DNA of 64,000 nt from Bacteroidetes bacterium GWE2_42_24 (GTDB lineage Bacteria; Bacteroidota; Bacteroidia; Bacteroidales; TTA-H9). The position numbers and the translations under genes were made by a program. Below the pieces are notes generated by a model. It was given only the letters and a program-made list of their open reading frames with translations, was not told the origin of the DNA and made no database searches. The DNA lies in assembly GCA_001768515.1 (NCBI GenBank), contig MEOA01000043.1, positions 124,001-188,000 on the forward strand. The letters are read 5' to 3'. Positions 36,948-44,899 of the stretch are shown here, piece by piece (position 1 is the first letter of the stretch; every line of letters begins with the position of its first letter).

Positions 36948-39900
36948 ATGAAAACTAATATAAAGAAAGTGCTGGTGCTCGGATCGGGTGCACTTAAGAT
37001 TGGTGAGGCTGGTGAATTCGACTATTCCGGATCGCAAGCACTGAAAGCGCTACGTGAGGAAGGCATCGAAACGGTATTGATTAACCCTAACATTGCAACC
37101 GTACAGACATCGGCCGACATTGCTGACCATATTTACTTTCTCCCTGTGACACCTGAATTCGTTGAAAAAGTAGTGCGGAAGGAGCGACCTCAGGGTATTA
37201 TGCTGGCTTTTGGCGGACAAACGGCTCTGAACTGTGGGGTTGATCTCTTCCGAAGCGGAAAGCTTGAACAATATGGGCTTGAAGTGCTGGGAACACCAGT
37301 GCAATCCATTATTGACACCGAGGATCGCGAATTGTTTGCCCGAAAGCTTGATGAGATTAATGTAAAGACTGCCCGCAGTTTTGCCTGCAATTCTGTTAGC
37401 GAAGCACAGGATGCCGCCAATAGTCTTGGTTACCCGGTGATCTGCCGAAGTGCTTTTGCGCTGGGTGGCCTGGGCAGTGGCTTCTGTAATAATGATGAAG
37501 AACTTCTGGCGCTTACTGCCAACGCCTTTGCATATGCGCAGCAGGTGTTGGTAGAAGAATCGCTGAAAGGGTGGAAAGAGGTTGAGTATGAGGTGGTGCG
37601 CGATATTTATGATAACTGCCTTACTGTATGTAATATGGAGAACTTTGATCCGCTGGGAATTCATACGGGAGAAAGTATCGTTGTTGCGCCCAGCCAGACG
37701 TTGAGCAATACGGAATATCATAAGCTTCGTGAGTTGTCAATGAGGATTGTAAGACATGTCGGAATTGTAGGGGAGTGTAATGTGCAATTTGCCCTCGATC
37801 CGCAATCTGAAGATTACCGGGTCATTGAGATGAATGCACGTCTATCACGATCCTCTGCGCTGGCAAGCAAAGCAACTGGTTACCCACTGGCCTTCGTGGC
37901 GGCCAAACTAGGGTTGGGGTATGGACTCCATGAAGTAAAGAATGCCGTTACGCGGTGCACTACCGCCTGTTTTGAGCCAGCGCTCGATTACATCGTGGTG
38001 AAGATTCCCCGTTGGGATCTCGATAAGTTTATCGGGGTGTCAAAAGAAATTGGTTCCAGCATGAAAAGCGTGGGCGAGGTGATGGCCATTGGCCGGTCTT
38101 TCGAAGAAGCCATTCAGAAAGGACTCAGGATGATCGGGCAGGGAATGCATGGGTTTGTTGCCAACCATGAATGGTTTTCGGATGATATTGAATTTGAACT
38201 TACCCATCCGACCGACAAACGGATTTTTGTAATTTATCAGGCATTTCTTGAGAATTTTACAGTAGATAGGATACATCAACTGACAGGAATAGACCGTTGG
38301 TTTCTTGAAAAGCTGCACCGTATCTTCAGACTCGAGCACAAGTTGTTTCGCGTAGCATCATTGGCTGAATTCCGGCCTGATTTATTGTGGGAGGTCAAAC
38401 AGGCTGGGTTCAGTGATTTTCAGGTAGCCAGATGTGTCCTGAAGCTTCAGGGTGCTGAACTGAAAGCCGGGGTACAGTTGGTTCGTGAGCATCGGAAAAG
38501 GCTTGGCATAGTCCCTGTGGTAAAACAGATAGACACTATGGCAGCAGAATATCCCGCTGCTACAAATTACCTTTACCTTACCTATAATGGAACAGCACAT
38601 GATATTCAGTATGAAGGCGATAAACGATCAGTCATCGTTTTGGGTTCCGGGGCCTATCGTATTGGTTCTTCTGTTGAGTTTGACTGGTGCGCAGTGAATG
38701 CTCTCACCACGGCGGGGAGATGCGGTTACCGTAAGGTGATGATTAATTTTAACCCTGAGACGGTGAGTACCGATTATGATTTGTGCGACAGGCTCTATTT
38801 TGATGAGTTAACTTTTGAAAGAGTGATGGATATCATCGAGCTTGAGGATCCTAAAGGAACCATTGTTTCGGTTGGCGGTCAGATTCCCAATAATCTGGCC
38901 ATGCGACTGGCTGAACAACATGTAATTATTCTCGGAACAAGTGCTTCATCGATTGATGCAGCCGAAGACCGCCATAAGTTTTCTTCTATGCTCGATCGCC
39001 TTGGTGTTGATCAGCCACGCTGGAAAGAACTAAATAATTTGAAGGAAGTACATCAGTTTGTTGAAGAAACGGGCTTTCCAGTTCTGATCAGGCCTTCTTA
39101 TGTGTTATCGGGTGCTGCGATGAATGTGGTATCAAACAGCGAGGAACTTGACCATTTTCTTACACTTGCCGCAAGGGTATCAGGTGAACATCCTGTGGTA
39201 ATCAGCCAGTTTATTGAGCAGGCAAAAGAGATCGAAATAGATGCAGTAGCTAACAATGGGGAGGTGATTCTGTATGCTGTTTCAGAGCATGTAGAGTATG
39301 CCGGGGTTCATAGTGGTGATGCGACGCTGGTTTTCCCTCCGCAGAAAATATACCTGGGGACCATACGGCGCATCAAGAAAATTACCCGACAGATTGCCCG
39401 TGAACTCAATATCACGGGGCCGTTTAACATCCAATTTTTGGCACGTGACAATGACATCAAGGTGATTGAATGCAACCTGAGGGCTTCCCGCAGCTTTCCG
39501 TTTGTGTCGAAAGTGCTGAAGATAAATATGATTGAAGCAGCTACACGTGTTATGCTGGGTGAACATGTAGGCAAGCCGGATAAAACACTTTTCGATCTGG
39601 AGTACGTTGGCGTGAAGGCTTCTCAGTTTAGCTTTTCTCGTTTGTCCAAAGCCGATCCGGTTCTGGGTGTTGAAATGGCCTCAACAGGCGAAGTCGGCTG
39701 CATTGGTGAAGACTTTTACGATGCGTTATTAAAGGCCATGCTGGCTGTTGGTTATCGCTTGCCGAAAAAAAATGTCCTGATTTCTTCGGGACCCACGCGA
39801 TCAAAGACCCAATTACTGGAAGGCTGCCGCCTGTTAGCCGATCGTGGCTTCAATCTCTTTGCAACACATGGCACTGCTAAGTTTCTCAAAGATCAGGGTC

Positions 39901-40175
39901 TGAAGGTAACCGGTGTAAACTGGCCTGATGAGGAAGGGTCTCCTAATGCACTCGACCTGATTCGTAACAAACAGGTTGAGTTGATCATTAATATTCCCAA
40001 AGACCATAGCAAGACTGAATTGTCGAACGATTATATCATCCGGCGCGCGGCTATAGACCACAACATTCCACTGCTGACAAACGACCGTCTTGCGGCTGCC
40101 TTCATTGCTGCCTTCTGCCGGAAACCTGTCTCGGAGTTGAGCATTAAGTCATGGCAGGAGTATGAGGTCATCTGA
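36948..40175 (+). CDS. carB: Carbamoyl phosphate synthase large subunit
   Basis: A 1075-residue subunit of normal length that forms carbamoyl phosphate from bicarbonate, ammonia and two ATP. It has two homologous ATP-grasp halves. The first half opens VLGSGALKIGEAGEFDYSG and the second opens at about residue 560 with VLGSGAYRIGSSVEFDWC. The C-terminal MGS-like allosteric domain (about 940-1075, LISSGPTRSKTQLLEGC) is where UMP and ornithine act in enterobacterial enzymes. The motif order is complete. A short inverted repeat (CTGATCA at 40172-40178 and TGATCAG at 40189-40195) overlaps the stop codon and may help termination. Confidence 0.97.
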   Translation: MKTNIKKVLVLGSGALKIGEAGEFDYSGSQALKALREEGIETVLINPNIATVQTSADIADHIYFLPVTPEFVEKVVRKERPQGIMLAFGGQTALNCGVDLFRSGKLEQYGLEVLGTPVQSIIDTEDRELFARKLDEINVKTARSFACNSVSEAQDAANSLGYPVICRSAFALGGLGSGFCNNDEELLALTANAFAYAQQVLVEESLKGWKEVEYEVVRDIYDNCLTVCNMENFDPLGIHTGESIVVAPSQTLSNTEYHKLRELSMRIVRHVGIVGECNVQFALDPQSEDYRVIEMNARLSRSSALASKATGYPLAFVAAKLGLGYGLHEVKNAVTRCTTACFEPALDYIVVKIPRWDLDKFIGVSKEIGSSMKSVGEVMAIGRSFEEAIQKGLRMIGQGMHGFVANHEWFSDDIEFELTHPTDKRIFVIYQAFLENFTVDRIHQLTGIDRWFLEKLHRIFRLEHKLFRVASLAEFRPDLLWEVKQAGFSDFQVARCVLKLQGAELKAGVQLVREHRKRLGIVPVVKQIDTMAAEYPAATNYLYLTYNGTAHDIQYEGDKRSVIVLGSGAYRIGSSVEFDWCAVNALTTAGRCGYRKVMINFNPETVSTDYDLCDRLYFDELTFERVMDIIELEDPKGTIVSVGGQIPNNLAMRLAEQHVIILGTSASSIDAAEDRHKFSSMLDRLGVDQPRWKELNNLKEVHQFVEETGFPVLIRPSYVLSGAAMNVVSNSEELDHFLTLAARVSGEHPVVISQFIEQAKEIEIDAVANNGEVILYAVSEHVEYAGVHSGDATLVFPPQKIYLGTIRRIKKITRQIARELNITGPFNIQFLARDNDIKVIECNLRASRSFPFVSKVLKINMIEAATRVMLGEHVGKPDKTLFDLEYVGVKASQFSFSRLSKADPVLGVEMASTGEVGCIGEDFYDALLKAMLAVGYRLPKKNVLISSGPTRSKTQLLEGCRLLADRGFNLFATHGTAKFLKDQGLKVTGVNWPDEEGSPNALDLIRNKQVELIINIPKDHSKTELSNDYIIRRAAIDHNIPLLTNDRLAAAFIAAFCRKPVSELSIKSWQEYEVI

Positions 40176-40495
40176 TCAGGATAGCTGCTGATCAGTGTTT
40201 CTTGCATTGGCCTTTCCTGTGATAATTGAGCCTGTATCGTATATATTGTAAGCTCAAAATCCATTCTGTCGGTTCATGCTTTACCTGAGGGTTACTGTAA
40301 GTTTTATGGATCTATAGCGCTGGATTACTTGTTAAAATCAGTGCTTTTTAGTTATTGTTTACTGACCATGAATGATTTTCGATTATATTTTTTGCGTGTT
40401 GTATTATTTTTTTGCCAAGATTGAATTAACTTTGTTGTAGTTTGCTACGTCAGTGCAATAGCACCCAATTAAAGTCTATCTAAATCCTTAATGTT
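40176..40495. other. Intergenic region between carB and the lysozyme cassette
   Basis: 320 bases hold no gene. A short hairpin overlaps the carB end. The candidate promoter of the next cassette is at 40427-40434. Confidence 0.4.
40427..40434 (+). promoter_or_regulatory. Candidate -7 box (TAACTTTG) for the four-gene lysozyme cassette
   Basis: A full TAnnTTTG match, 61 bases before the first gene of the cassette. No clear -33 element. Confidence 0.4.
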
Positions 40496-41812
40496 ATGTT
40501 TGGTTCACCTATTTTGGACATTGCCCTTGGCCTTATGTTCATTTTTTTGATTTACAGCCTGCTTGCAACAACATTGATGGAACTTCTTGCGTCGATATTT
40601 GGATTAAGGGCTAGGCTGCTTCGCAGCACTATCTATCGAATGCTGAATGATGACCCGACCGGGAAACCGTGGTCTTTAATCCGGCTTAAAAAAGGGATCA
40701 TCAGTTTTTTCTGTTTCTTCATTCCACCCCGCTGGTGCTGGTTCAGACATGACCCATCATTGGCATGGACGTTTTATAACATGCCAGGAATAAAGTATCT
40801 TGGATTAAACAACTGGTTTAAACGGCCTTCCTATATCAATCCTGACCGGTTTTCGAAGACGATTTGCGATATTCTTAAAGAGTCGGCTTCATCTTGCGAT
40901 AAGAAGGACGAGGAAGCAATATCAGAGATTCTTGAAAGCGGCGAGATCAATTGCGGTGAATTTTCCTGTAGTATTGATCCCGAAACGCAACGGTTTTTGC
41001 GTTCACTTTGGAAAGAAAAGCCGGTAGAAAATCAAACGCACGAGGAACAATTCAGGCAGCAATTGGTGGCATGGTATAATGAGACCATGGAACTCCTTAC
41101 TGGCCGGTATAAGCGGAGAATGCAGTATAATACACTGGCTCTTGGGTTTGCCATTGCTGTGGTTTTCAATGTTAATACCATTGAAATCGCGTCACGCCTT
41201 TCTACGAATGATAATGCCCGGGAGGCCCTGGTTCAGTTAGCAGGTTCATGGATTGAGTCCAACGGTAGTAATCCGGATTTCATTAAGAGCCCGGCTGACT
41301 CATTGGTTCCACTCAACCAACTGTCTGATAATGTCATTAATATGCTGAATGATGAAATCAGGACGCCCAATAATCTGCTTGCTTTAGGCTACGGGATACC
41401 CGATGATTTTATGGCCCTGTCACCAAAAGCCATGACCAGACGTTCGGGGGACACAGATACCATTACCAATACTGTGCAGGCGACAAAAGTGACTACATCA
41501 AAGCGTGATTCGGTTGAGTGGATGCAATGTCTTCAGGAGGTATATAACAAACGTTGCAATGCCTTGGAACCAAAGGTCAGCACAACAGCGTTGTCCATAG
41601 GTCCAAAAAATCAAGGTCCCTGCCGTGCTGTTTCCTATTCTGATAAACTCACTTTCAACGACAGGATAACTTTCGTGTTTAACAGGGTTAGACGGAATTA
41701 CTCACTGTTTGGGTTTTTGTTAACGGCTATTGCTATTTCTTTGGGTGCACCGTTCTGGTTTGATCTGCTGAATAAAGTTGTTAAAATAAAAAACGAAGGA
41801 AAGAAGCCATAA
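40496..41812 (+). CDS. Uncharacterised three-helix membrane protein
   Basis: A 438-residue protein. Transmembrane helices are visible at about residues 5-28 (ILDIALGLMFIFLIYSLLAT), about 212-232 (TLALGFAIAVVFNVNTIEIA) and 403-421 (FGFLLTAIAISLGAPFWFD). It belongs, as I recall, to a widespread bacterial family without a named function, recognisable by the N-terminal DxAxGLxFxxL pattern, NVNTIEIA in the second helix, and the C-terminal GAPFWFDLLNK. The region between helices 2 and 3 is large and polar, with several Cys (for example MQCLQEVYNKRC), and is likely extracytoplasmic. It leads a tight cassette: 11 bases to the next gene, an 8-base overlap after that, then a lysozyme. Confidence 0.7.
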   Translation: MFGSPILDIALGLMFIFLIYSLLATTLMELLASIFGLRARLLRSTIYRMLNDDPTGKPWSLIRLKKGIISFFCFFIPPRWCWFRHDPSLAWTFYNMPGIKYLGLNNWFKRPSYINPDRFSKTICDILKESASSCDKKDEEAISEILESGEINCGEFSCSIDPETQRFLRSLWKEKPVENQTHEEQFRQQLVAWYNETMELLTGRYKRRMQYNTLALGFAIAVVFNVNTIEIASRLSTNDNAREALVQLAGSWIESNGSNPDFIKSPADSLVPLNQLSDNVINMLNDEIRTPNNLLALGYGIPDDFMALSPKAMTRRSGDTDTITNTVQATKVTTSKRDSVEWMQCLQEVYNKRCNALEPKVSTTALSIGPKNQGPCRAVSYSDKLTFNDRITFVFNRVRRNYSLFGFLLTAIAISLGAPFWFDLLNKVVKIKNEGKKP

Positions 41813-41823
41813 TACCTTAAGTC

Positions 41824-42207
41824 ATGGAAAGCAATCGTACAGTAAAAATTGTCGTAATTCTGATTCTGCTTATCGTAGTGGTTCAGTTTGTGATTACACT
41901 CCTGAGCAGAGGAGATGCAAACAGTGCCATCAGGGAGATGAAGGCTGCCCGCGAGAGCCTTGGAAAAGCCATTGAAACATTGGATGAAGCACGTTCTTCG
42001 ATAAATATGCTTACCCTGCAGCTTGATAGTGCACGTGCCGACCTGCATGCACTTGATTCACAAGTTGAACAACTGGATATAGATATGCGTACCCGTCTGG
42101 CTGCAGTCGATAAAAGACTGAATACGACCCTGTCCGACATTCGGAAAGAGAATAAAACTATTGTCGATCTCCAGAAGAAACTCTCAACCCTTGAATATCA
42201 TGAATAA
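41824..42207 (+). CDS. Membrane-anchored coiled-coil protein, i-spanin-like shape
   Basis: A 127-residue protein with an N-terminal transmembrane helix at about 7-27 (KIVVILILLIVVVQFVITLL) and no cleavable signal. The rest is one continuous coiled coil (about 35-125), rich in Leu, Ala, Glu, Lys and Asp heptads. The predicted topology is cytoplasmic N-terminus with the coiled coil in the periplasm. This is the shape of phage Rz-type inner-membrane spanins, but also of many small envelope proteins, and I claim no homology. It starts 11 bases after the preceding gene and overlaps the next by 8 bases, so the three are almost certainly co-translated. Confidence 0.75.
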   Translation: MESNRTVKIVVILILLIVVVQFVITLLSRGDANSAIREMKAARESLGKAIETLDEARSSINMLTLQLDSARADLHALDSQVEQLDIDMRTRLAAVDKRLNTTLSDIRKENKTIVDLQKKLSTLEYHE

Positions 42208-42724
42208 TTATTTAACCATTTTTATATCAATGCTCTTATTGTGTTCCCTTCCTGTTAGCGGGCAACACACTGTGATCACAGATATTGAACAGGTAGCACC
42301 TCCGGTACTTATCACCAGGGGGATGGTGGTGGATGTCGAATGTGATTCTATATGGTTGGTGAGCCCATTCAGGCTTGGATTGTATGAAGAAGCTCGACAG
42401 CTTGTAATGTCGCTGAATACCGGGAATATTGAATCTCTGATAAGCCAGTATGAGCATAAACTCAAACTCTATTCATACTGGAACGATTCACTCCGGGAAT
42501 CTTACCGGCTGTTGAGCTATCAATATGATTCAACACTTGTTAAAACCACATCGCAACTCTCAATGGTAGATGAAAGACTTAGTCGGGTTGATAATTCGAT
42601 ACTCGAGTCGAAGGAGCAACTCGATAAAGCGATTCAGGAGGTCAAACGATCCAGAACAGATAAATGGTTATGGGGTCTGGGTGGTATTCTGGTGGGGTTG
42701 GGTGTTGCTGCAATTTTAAGATAA
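42200..42724 (+). CDS. Secreted coiled-coil protein with C-terminal membrane helix
   Basis: The protein is 174 residues from the ATG at 42200, which overlaps the stop of the previous gene by 8 bases; the in-frame ATG at 42161 lies too far inside that gene. It has a signal peptide (MNNYLTIFISMLLLCSLPVSG), a short beta-like region, then coiled coil at about 85-150. A final hydrophobic helix is at about 155-173 (WLWGLGGILVGLGVAAIL), ending in Arg. The body would thus be periplasmic and anchored at its C-terminus. The function is unknown. Together with the partner upstream it gives two membrane-anchored coiled coils, one at each end, next to a lysozyme. Confidence 0.7.
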   Translation: MNNYLTIFISMLLLCSLPVSGQHTVITDIEQVAPPVLITRGMVVDVECDSIWLVSPFRLGLYEEARQLVMSLNTGNIESLISQYEHKLKLYSYWNDSLRESYRLLSYQYDSTLVKTTSQLSMVDERLSRVDNSILESKEQLDKAIQEVKRSRTDKWLWGLGGILVGLGVAAILR

Positions 42725-42746
42725 TAATTAATTAAAGGTATCAATT

Positions 42747-43241
42747 ATGCAAAAAAAAGTCACTAAGGTCTCAGATCAATGTATCAGGTTGATTGAATTT
42801 TTCGAATGCAGTGGTGATGTTACTCGCTTTCTAAAAGCATACAAATGCCCGGCAGGTGTTTGGACTATCGGTATCGGAACGACCTGTTACCCTGATGGGT
42901 CGAAGGTGAAGCCAGGCGATACCTGCACTGTTGCCCTTGCCTATGAGTACCTGCGTCATGAGTTGACATTGACCGAATCCAGAGTTGATTCTTTCACCAC
43001 CGATTCTGTAACGCAACAACAATTCGATAGTTTGGTCAGTTTCGCGTACAACCTTGGTTGTGGCGCCCTGAAGGGAAGCACTCTTCTGAAGAAAGTAAAC
43101 CTGAACCCGAAAGACCCTTCCATTGAAATTGAGTTTAATAAATGGGTCTATGCTAAAGGGGTGAAGCTGAAAGGTCTCATCAGACGACGAAAAGCAGAAG
43201 CCTGGCTGTACTTTCATGGTTCTCTGAAGTTCGATTTCTAA
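42747..43241 (+). CDS. GH24 phage-type lysozyme (endolysin-like)
   Basis: A 164-residue protein of the T4-lysozyme/GH24 muramidase family, which cuts the glycan backbone of peptidoglycan. The active-site region reads FFE (Glu20), then Lys-Ala-Tyr-Lys-Cys34, and WTIGIG with Thr40, matching the Glu/Cys-or-Asp/Thr pattern of R21-type endolysins (E..LKAYxCPAGVWTIGYG). The spacing between Glu20 and Cys34 is about five residues longer than usual, which may affect activity. There is no signal peptide, as in phage endolysins that need a separate export route. It ends a four-gene cassette with three membrane proteins and is followed by a very strong terminator. Confidence 0.85.
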   Translation: MQKKVTKVSDQCIRLIEFFECSGDVTRFLKAYKCPAGVWTIGIGTTCYPDGSKVKPGDTCTVALAYEYLRHELTLTESRVDSFTTDSVTQQQFDSLVSFAYNLGCGALKGSTLLKKVNLNPKDPSIEIEFNKWVYAKGVKLKGLIRRRKAEAWLYFHGSLKFDF

Positions 43242-43252
43242 ATGTTTACTAT

Positions 43253-43287
43253 AAAAAGCCCCGGTCAATTGTTGACCGGGGCTTTTT
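43253..43287. terminator. Bidirectional terminator between lysozyme and TonB-like genes
   Basis: A 16-bp perfect stem (43253-43268 with 43272-43287) has a 3-base loop and T-runs on both strands, placed between convergent genes. It ends transcripts from both sides. Confidence 0.95.
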
Positions 43288-43305: not shown

Positions 43306-43986
43306 TTACTTCAGTATAAATTTGACTGTCATGGTTAGGCTGACCCTTACGGGTTTGTTGAGCTGGTGGCCAGGCTTCCATTTAGGCATGGATCTGATCA
43401 CCCGAAGAGCTTCTTCATCGCAGCCACCTCCAATACCACGTTTTATTTCTGTGTTGCTGATACTGCCATCCTTTTCTATTACAAATCCTATATAAACTGT
43501 CCCCTGGATGTGTGTTTCACGAGCTATCTGTGGGTATATTATATGACTACTCAGGTATTCGAGACGTCCTTGCTCACCCCCCGGAAACTCCGGCATAGCT
43601 TCAACGATGATGAATGGAATCGTTTCATCAGGCTCGGAATAAGCCGGAGGTGGGATTGGCTGAAAAACATCAATGGACGCGGTAGGAGTTGTCTCTGCGT
43701 CAATGACAGGATCTATTGTATTGGCCGACGGATCATCTGTTGATATAAAAATGGTGGTCGGTGGTGGGGGGGGTAATGGAGGTGCAGGTGGTTTTACTCC
43801 TGTATTAATAACCGGAACTTCATCAACAAAGATTGGATTTTCAGTCACTTTGAGGGTAAAAGGCTTTATCGGGCTTTCCCATTCAAAAGCCAGAAGGACG
43901 AGCGTCAGGGCTGTAATTAGCCCAATTTGTGTAAAGGCGAACCGGTTCGATTCAAGCCTTTGTTGTTTGATGTGTTTTGGTTTCAT
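43306..43986 (-). CDS. TonB-like energy-transducing protein (paralogue 1)
   Basis: The protein is 226 residues from the ATG at 43984-43986; the longer frame to 44049 adds 21 residues in front of the usual start. A short basic N-terminus leads to one transmembrane helix (about 18-35, TQIGLITALTLVLLAFEWE). A Pro-rich periplasmic spacer (PAPPLPPPPPTT) follows. The C-terminal TonB domain is at about 140-226, with YPxIARExxIxGTVYxxFVIEKDG and GGGCDEEALRVI. TonB proteins couple the proton motive force to outer-membrane transporters. A close paralogue lies just upstream; the two share most of the C-terminal domain sequence. No ExbB/ExbD genes are nearby. Confidence 0.88.
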   Translation of the reverse strand: MKPKHIKQQRLESNRFAFTQIGLITALTLVLLAFEWESPIKPFTLKVTENPIFVDEVPVINTGVKPPAPPLPPPPPTTIFISTDDPSANTIDPVIDAETTPTASIDVFQPIPPPAYSEPDETIPFIIVEAMPEFPGGEQGRLEYLSSHIIYPQIARETHIQGTVYIGFVIEKDGSISNTEIKRGIGGGCDEEALRVIRSMPKWKPGHQLNKPVRVSLTMTVKFILK

Positions 43987-44163
43987 GGCTGCTGGTATTA
44001 AACATTCGATGTGATATGAACGTATGCCGTGGGTGGCCGTGAATCCCATCTGCTATGACGGGTGAGAAGAAAACCGTAAGCTACTTGCCGGATTTAACAG
44101 ATATTATTGTATAGACGGATAATCCAATCCGTTTCGTTTACGTCCAAACGCTGAAATGCAAAA

Positions 44164-44218: not shown

Positions 44219-44899
44219 TTATCCCTGCAGGGTAAATTTTATAGGCATGTTAAACTGAACACGAACAGGCTTGCCACGTTGTTTTCCGGGTTTCCAACGA
44301 GGCATGGCTTTAATAACACGCATGGCTTCTTCATCACATCCACCACCAATACCACGTAGAATTTTAATATCGGTTACCCGGCCGTCTTTCTCAACGACAA
44401 AGGTTACATAAACTGTACCTGAAATACTGCTTTCGCGAGCAATCTGGGGATACTTGATATTATCACGCAGGTAGGTCATTCGGGCTTCATCACCACCTGG
44501 AAAATCAGGCATCGATTCAACAATCTGGAAGATTTCGGCTTCAACGATCTCTTCTTCTTCATGCTTTACTGGGACGTACTGCTGAACCTCTGAGGTAGCT
44601 GTAGCTTCAGCATCAATAACGATTTCATCATCAATCGCAACGTCATCTTCAACGATGTTGATAATGGTAGTAGTAGCAGGTGGGGGAGCAGCGGCAACCT
44701 CAACTTTCTGCTGAGTGATGAGAACAATTTCTTCTGCTACATTGGTCACCTGACGCTGAAAAGTTTCGACTACTTTCTTGTCGTAAGTCTTCCATTCAAA
44801 ACCTAAAAACACCAGGACCAGTGCCAGAATCAACCCGATTTGAATAAAATATACTTTTTTATTCTCCAAGTCGGCTTTCGGCGTTTTTTTGTCAACCAT
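44219..44899 (-). CDS. TonB-like energy-transducing protein (paralogue 2)
   Basis: A 226-residue protein with the same layout as its neighbour: basic N-terminus, one transmembrane helix (about 17-34, FIQIGLILALVLVFLGFEW), an acidic and Ala/Pro-containing periplasmic spacer (about 65-130), and a C-terminal TonB domain (about 135-226). YPQIARESSISGTVYVTFVV and RGIGGGCDEEAMRVI match the paralogue closely, with divergence in the spacer. This suggests tandem duplication and specialisation for different transporters. A terminator separates the two genes, so they can be expressed independently. Confidence 0.9.
   Translation of the reverse strand: MVDKKTPKADLENKKVYFIQIGLILALVLVFLGFEWKTYDKKVVETFQRQVTNVAEEIVLITQQKVEVAAAPPPATTTIINIVEDDVAIDDEIVIDAEATATSEVQQYVPVKHEEEEIVEAEIFQIVESMPDFPGGDEARMTYLRDNIKYPQIARESSISGTVYVTFVVEKDGRVTDIKILRGIGGGCDEEAMRVIKAMPRWKPGKQRGKPVRVQFNMPIKFTLQG

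Follow-up and report, generated by a model that had tools for sequence, protein, structure and literature searches.

How an endolysin-type lysozyme made without a signal peptide might reach the cell wall is the question raised by a four-gene operon of Bacteroidetes bacterium GWE2_42_24, which lies in a 64,000-nucleotide stretch of contig MEOA01000043.1 (positions 124,001 to 188,000 of the forward strand), here called the window. The operon encodes a membrane protein (open reading frame 1, ORF1), two smaller membrane-anchored proteins (ORF2 and ORF3) and a GH24 muramidase (ORF4), and an earlier note made from the letters alone had regarded it as a possible domesticated phage lysis cassette. We tentatively read the operon as a chromosomal hydrolase-deployment module built on an inner-membrane ORF1 platform, with an endolysin as its cargo in this genome. 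The earlier note is partly supported by our analysis, its observations being largely right and its interpretation half right.

Conservation of the operon and nature of its lysozyme

The same four genes were found in the same place, flanked by carB and tonB-like genes, in 3/3 genomes of the genus (the window's own, G001 and G002), and the ORF1 proteins of the two other genomes are 59% and 74% identical to that of the window. Comparison with the nearest relative gave ratios of nonsynonymous to synonymous substitution (dN/dS) of 0.05 for ORF1, 0.11 for ORF2, 0.13 for ORF3 and 0.034 for GH24, values that are to be read with silent sites near saturation, above all in ORF1 (dS 3.2). Because all four genes and their place are kept in the three genomes with low dN/dS, the operon is maintained under purifying selection.

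The last gene product matched PF00959 at 126.8 bits (curated cut-off 22.3) and solved endolysins with a best E-value of 1e-33. Alignment to these endolysins placed Glu20, Cys34 and Thr40, which are invariant in 3/3 genus genomes. We take Glu - Asp/Cys - Thr to be the catalytic triad of GH24 enzymes and a Cys to be compatible with activity; a Cys occupies this triad position in 79/79 GH24 segments from viral contigs, a set fetched largely by the YKCPAGVW pattern. No signal peptide was found in the enzyme, and its 169-codon open frame leaves only a few codons before the ATG, which is no room for one. The earlier description of an endolysin-type lysozyme lacking a signal peptide was thus confirmed. 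No other GH24 gene was found in the window's genome.

GH24 relatives occurred in 1,406 phage records, every one of them less than 60% identical to the window enzyme. All three genus genomes share a five-residue insertion after Glu20, which is absent from the 79/79 viral-contig segments of the one set. It is present (FECSGDVT) in the GH24 of two near-identical viral contigs, L284 and L296, whose enzyme is identical to that of the window in 91/173 alignment columns, both being of the YKCPAG type. These contigs share the GH24 type and the insertion with the window but carry a 77-residue membrane protein ahead of the enzyme; in L284 a 132-residue protein with an N-terminal hydrophobic stretch follows it. 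Since this GH24 subtype is also encoded in phage contigs, the GH24 gene is probably of phage origin.

The ORF1 family

Sequence comparison places ORF1 in an uncharacterised family of predicted three-helix inner-membrane proteins. Members are characterised by three hydrophobic segments (recognised in 62/73), a WF...M.R..G.YKR..Q region and a C-terminal LGAPFWFDLL motif, and the window protein has all of these traits. In searches of Pfam, PHROGs and NCBIfam, no profile matched ORF1 with an E-value below 0.08. An AlphaFold2 model of ORF1 (mean predicted local distance difference test score, pLDDT, of 80) gave best E-values of 1.6 against the PDB and 1.2 against a viral library, and the best VIA-align score was Z 4.3 over 64 residues, the rows being unrelated transporters, kinases and others; such weak fold matching is no proof of a new fold.

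Scanning GTDB species genomes for the motif yielded at least 591 stretches, of which at least 559 encode ORF1 relatives, and 80 of these relatives were retained for study. No relative was found among 50,697 phage records, and viral contigs gave one relative among 21 motif-bearing stretches in a scan that looks only where the conserved motif is present. Plasmids carried 12. Of 296 genomes drawn evenly from the window's phylum (window's own genome included), 21 carried ORF1, about 7% of those sampled, with a scattered distribution, and in the phylum of the Parvularcula metagenome-assembled genome G393, itself picked for having ORF1, it was present in 10/299. The claim that ORF1 is a recurrent family of unknown function was therefore borne out, and this family is the key part of the operon. 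A trypsin-like domain is fused to the ORF1 C-terminus in 6/89 loci. On Rhizobium, Paracoccus and Agrobacterium plasmids (L017, L021 and L022), a conserved block of three unknown genes and a vanadium haloperoxidase gene lies ahead of ORF1.

Enzymes encoded downstream of ORF1

Genes were called around ORF1 in the fetched loci, and a downstream gene was counted as operonic when it lay on the same strand with gaps of up to 60 nt. The survey left out L031 and L032 (the same as L024 and L025), L065 (the same as L026), and L066 and L089 (ORF1 not recovered by the gene finder), and the partner counts exclude the window, L024 and L025. Among 108 operonic downstream proteins from 57 loci, remaining from 133 after the 25 rows of the barrel clusters c2 and c35 had been removed, we found 16 S8 subtilases, 7 patatins, 5 GH25, 5 GH46, 4 Amidase_2, 3 CHAP and 3 trypsin-like proteins in the 25 of 49 families listed. 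The control consisted of 108 genes of less than 700 residues in a shuffled draw from 377 distant genes of the same loci, with 25 of 164 families listed, including every family with at least two members; none of the S8, patatin, GH25, GH46, Amidase_2 and CHAP families reached two members there. A separate class-labelled search found an enzyme, operonic or fused, in 36/89 loci and a peptidoglycan hydrolase in 13/89, with labels seeded from these same operons. The corresponding enrichment, 41/151 operonic against 16/902 other genes, is partly circular for that reason, and the two 108-protein scans form the independent pair. On a Caballeronia plasmid, an amidase gene begins one base downstream of ORF1.

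A hydrophobic N-terminus at the first start was found in 0/39 class-labelled downstream enzymes. Under a lenient rule allowing six starts, 2/39 ORF1-adjacent enzymes passed, by way of later start codons, as opposed to 28/30 non-adjacent S8 proteins and 6/7 non-adjacent GH25 proteins, the test applying a hydrophobicity threshold in place of a trained predictor. For S8, the control comprised 28 proteins from 8 related genomes, in which 30 of 45 places were given as loci and 2 of these lay next to ORF1, together with 2 proteins from the window's genome; in 6/30 the chosen frame lacks a subtilase motif, and a few frames may therefore be wrong. The neighbour survey proposed in the earlier note did reveal wall hydrolases, but the commonest labelled partners of ORF1 are signal-less subtilases, not wall-cutting enzymes alone. 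If ORF1 lets enzymes cross the inner membrane, this would account for the absence, from the subtilases and GH25 muramidases of ORF1 operons, of the export signals that their non-adjacent counterparts carry.

Two other explanations bear on these associations. The signal-less enzymes could be antibacterial effectors of a contractile or other secretion system to which ORF1 is an accessory. The amidase, GH25, CHAP, Tle1-like lipase and patatin partners do resemble effectors of the type VI secretion kind. However, no secretion-system family appeared among the 25 of 49 Pfam families listed for the operonic genes, and enzymes fused to ORF1 itself would not be freely injectable; we consider this explanation very improbable. 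The other supposes a loose assembly, in which a captured phage lysozyme gene rides on the ORF1 transcript with no common function. It would agree with the cassette being seen in one genus only and with the scarcity of recognised enzyme partners in the phylum of G393, but gene order and strong constraint are kept in 3/3 genomes at 59-74% ORF1 identity and ORF1 is recurrently associated with hydrolases, and we give it hardly any credence.

The adaptor and the predicted barrel partner

Many of the ORF1-partner enzymes start with a common region of about 75 residues. To the eye this region is SH3-like, an identity that we set aside; because only one of 8 segments touched a bacterial SH3 model (E 0.08), the region is called only the adaptor. 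It was found in 6/296 genomes, 5 of which are ORF1-positive (Fisher p 6e-6), and 6/7 adaptor places lie directly downstream of ORF1. That the adaptor is so closely tied to a single membrane family is the best indication that they belong to a common system.

A further recurrent partner, cluster c2, has a signal peptide in 23/23 members (26/27 with cluster c35 included). The model of a c2 protein from L099, of fair quality (pLDDT 69.9, predicted template modelling score 0.51), has a barrel at its C-terminal end, preceded by a helical domain. Foldseek returned no match at E 0.001 or better. In a second fold search, 15 of the first 17 rows were membrane barrel proteins or designs, nearly all aligned at about residues 460-620 with Z 3.3-4.9, which suggests, without proving it, that c2 is an outer-membrane barrel protein. 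Cluster c2 occurs in 11/296 genomes and beside ORF1 in 5 of them (Fisher p 4e-4). Among the six others, three loci, L268 (6523-11260), L269 (4239-8276) and L270 (4846-10193), carry c2 without a full ORF1, with patatin-, caspase- and CHAP-like neighbours in turn as judged by eye; L270 encodes a 75-residue ORF1-like protein.

It is conceivable, and in our estimate somewhat doubtful, that ORF1 as inner-membrane platform, an adaptor tagging exchangeable signal-less hydrolases for it and an outer-membrane barrel constitute an undescribed envelope system of Bacteroidota that moves cytoplasmic hydrolases across the envelope without Sec signals, and that the window operon is a reduced version of it with a captured phage endolysin. 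No description of the ORF1 family tied to signal-less hydrolases was found in the literature searched, in which subscription journals were sparsely covered.

The barrel partners also bear on an explanation without lysis, in which ORF1, ORF2 and ORF3 would belong to a complex of the envelope and GH24 would make a local opening in the wall where that complex is assembled, with no killing. A trans-envelope complex is suggested by the barrels found elsewhere, and purifying selection together with the conserved place beside carB and tonB-like genes would suit a remodelling role. A lysozyme dedicated to such a role would, however, be expected to carry a signal peptide, and the enzyme partner of ORF1 varies so widely that a single assembly job fits it poorly. 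We regard non-lytic remodelling as unlikely.

ORF2, ORF3 and the spanin question

ORF2 has a significant heptad pattern (p 0.0005) and, on sequence grounds only, the topology of an i-spanin, with an N-terminal membrane helix and a periplasmic coil. ORF3 has a signal peptide and a glycine-rich C-terminal membrane helix at about residues 156-173. In 3/3 ORF3 homologues, read by eye, a glutamine follows the likely signal-peptidase-I site, which agrees with the Bacteroidetes Q-rule as set out in the accessible part of PMC5837995, and no lipobox was found in the first 45 residues. Residues 58-150 of ORF3 did not show a heptad pattern (p 0.38), the only one being in the shorter stretch 103-150 (p 0.003), which was picked afterwards. 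The coiled-coil pair reported earlier, one protein anchored at its N-terminus and the other at its C-terminus, thus stands in full for ORF2, but for ORF3 in the C-terminal helix only.

According to the accessible text of PMC6139136, a spanin requires an outer-membrane lipoprotein or an N-terminal lipoylation signal, and because ORF3 has no lipobox in 3/3 genomes, ORF2 and ORF3 are not a canonical spanin. Compared with the spanins Rz/Rz1 and T1 gp11 as that text presents them, ORF2 has the i-spanin topology and ORF3 a C-terminal helix as in the u-spanin, but ORF3 has no lipoylation signal in any of the three genomes and the pair therefore has no recognised outer-membrane anchor. As a candidate unimolecular spanin, ORF3 presents the C-terminal helix and lacks the lipobox. 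The spanin arrangement put forward in the earlier note is consequently not supported.

The best PHROGs match of ORF2 was an Rz-like spanin family (E 8e-4), and a LysB match was obtained at E 2e-4. Both matches were discounted because many unrelated coiled coils match ORF2 as well, an archaeal SMC-related NCBIfam family (E 1e-5) scoring better than LysB. No phage relatives were found for ORF2 (best phage E-value 0.4) or for ORF3 (best phage E-value 0.2, and none in viral contigs), and the models of ORF2 and ORF3 had no match in the viral loci L147-L226.

These results weaken the case for a domesticated phage lysis cassette of holin, spanins and endolysin, which we now consider improbable. Its GH24 subtype is common to phage contigs, and ORF2 has the topology and the best PHROGs match that it would predict. 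ORF3, however, has no lipobox, the unrelated coiled coils matched by ORF2 include some that score above lysis models, and the searches gave no phage relatives of ORF1-3 beyond the one ORF1-like hit in viral contigs; GH24 alone has them, which does not sustain domestication of the entire cassette.

Viral contigs with a YKCPAG-type GH24 like that of the window (L147, L149-L151 and L153) differ from it in the genes that precede the enzyme, which encode a 56-residue hydrophobic protein and a 145-residue lipoprotein-like protein with a C-terminal helix. A hydrophobic protein of 53-60 residues stands before GH24 in these contigs and in L155 and L156, and all of them except L155 also have, ahead of GH24, a lipoprotein-like protein that has a helix at its C-terminus and may be a unimolecular spanin.

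Comparison with known systems and proposed mechanism

Type 10 secretion systems consist of a holin, an endolysin and a spanin outside phages (PMC10847048). The lysis cassettes of this kind described in the accessible part of that paper (Serratia ChiWXYZ and Yersinia entomophaga YenLC) resemble the window operon in being chromosomal, non-prophage operons with an endolysin-type enzyme and envelope proteins. In contrast to them as described there, the window has an ORF1 of 438 residues with three helices and no holin relative found, its endolysin gene is last in the operon, it has no lipoprotein spanin partner, and many of the enzymes that accompany ORF1 in other genomes are not wall-cutting. Of the type 10 hallmarks, the operon has an endolysin in a non-phage locus and lacks a canonical spanin. 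By analogy, the type 10 secretion system appears to be the closest functional parallel, and the operon may well work like one. We file it neither as a type 10 system nor under the conflict systems considered next because the spanin test failed and no holin was recognised.

The closest organisational parallel, again by analogy, would be the conflict systems of Kaur et al. 2020 (PMC7159879), with their constant part and variable effectors. Systems 3 and 4 in the accessible part of that paper have a peptidase core or a membrane component, to which effectors that can be exchanged (peptidases, lysozymes or nucleases) are linked by a small domain common to them. ORF1 differs in having three hydrophobic segments where EACC1 has one helix, and a barrel partner is not mentioned in that part of the paper. 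Family scans of the four window proteins, in which the EAD and EACC1 models were not run, found no trypsin, NucA or caspase family of the system 3 and 4 core.

Such a conflict or abortive-infection role, in which ORF1 would sense envelope damage or phage and free toxic hydrolases inside the cell, appears rather unlikely to us. The sporadic distribution of ORF1 (21/296) would fit it, the trypsin, S8 and patatin partners resemble those of published conflict systems (PMC7159879, accessible part), a NucA-type endonuclease gene lies two genes upstream in L018, and one caspase-like gene lies beside a barrel protein. Against it, PADLOC gave no match for ORF1, ORF3 or GH24 and weak coiled-coil matches only for ORF2 (best E 1.1e-4), the window copy adjoins housekeeping genes, and a cytoplasmic muramidase would be without substrate unless the membrane opens.

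Under the hydrolase-deployment reading, the GH24 muramidase would be made without a signal peptide and held in the cytoplasm. Upon a trigger, ORF1 would assemble or open in the inner membrane and GH24 would gain the periplasm. ORF2 and ORF3, for which inner-membrane anchors and periplasmic helical parts are predicted, would hold the platform to the wall or link the two. GH24 would then cut peptidoglycan, and the cell, or a subpopulation of cells, would most likely lyse. The action would resemble that of a holin plus endolysin, with an unrelated protein as the holin and no canonical spanin. In other Bacteroidota, the ORF1 platform is found with other signal-less hydrolases, many of them adaptor-tagged, and often with the predicted outer-membrane barrel partner. 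Should ORF1 prove to let enzymes through the inner membrane, it would count as a holin-like or secretion component with no relation to those known.

Several results weigh against this reading. ORF1 is only a putative membrane-opening or enzyme-binding protein; profile searches matched it to no holin family, and the charges flanking its helices suggest an orientation but do not settle the topology. In G006, the nearest other family member with ORF1, the gene stands without the cassette beside a TauE-type gene. Searches of the window's own genome turned up neither the adaptor nor c2. Among the loci surveyed (cellular genomes at large were not searched), only the three genus members had ORF2 and ORF3, so that other genomes give no clue to what the two proteins do. 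At 53/89 loci, no enzyme of the labelled classes was recognised, and in the phylum of G393 an enzyme partner, a patatin, was recognised at 1/8 ORF1 loci. RidA-type proteins, which are not exported hydrolases, make up 7/108 of the operonic downstream proteins, and trypsin is not enriched (3/108 operonic, 3/108 control). Proteases and patatins could, moreover, act inside the cell without export.

Features of the locus and its surroundings

Table 1 Coordinates of the four-gene operon and its signals in the window
Feature	Coordinates	Strand	Description
ORF1	40496..41812	+	438-residue predicted inner-membrane protein; hydrophobic segments 6-24, 214-232, 404-422; C-terminal motif LGAPFWFDLL
ORF2	41824..42207	+	127 residues; N-terminal membrane helix, residues 9-27; heptad-patterned helix, predicted periplasmic
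ORF3	42200..42724	+	174 residues from ATG; TTG start at 42161 would give 187 residues
GH24 muramidase (ORF4; phage lysozyme, PF00959)	42747..43241	+	164 residues, no signal peptide
Glu20 codon and five-residue insertion CSGDV	42804..42821	+	ahead of the remaining active-site loop (Cys34, Thr40)
Strong intrinsic terminator	43253..43287	+	16 pairs; -27.1 kcal/mol (folded stretch); z -6.8
Isolated Bacteroidota-type -7 box TAACTTTG	40427..40434	+	unproven promoter candidate

Gaps of 11 nt and 22 nt separate ORF1 from ORF2 and ORF3 from GH24, and ORF2 and ORF3 overlap by 8 nt. The tight packing claimed for them holds as to the four genes, but the overlapping starts are confined to one gene pair. 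The very strong terminator was recovered as described (Table 1). The single promoter was not: promoter-like sites occur at chance level (9 found, 7.8 expected), and upstream of ORF1 there is only one isolated -7 box, judged by what we take to be the Bacteroidota consensus. Phage structural genes were recognised by eye nowhere among the open reading frames at 35.8-49.1 kb, the part of the window scanned for phage genes, as the earlier note had also found.

The operon is flanked upstream by carAB and downstream by two tonB-like genes, the neighbours being named by eye. The carB relative (36948-40175) adjoins ORF1 on the same strand in the window's genus; a carB relative is also next to ORF1 in L136, L137 and L139, from another family of the phylum, but on the opposite strand. 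The two tandem genes for TonB-like energy transducers (43306-44049 and 44219-44899, - strand, by eye) lie downstream of the cassette in all three genus genomes.

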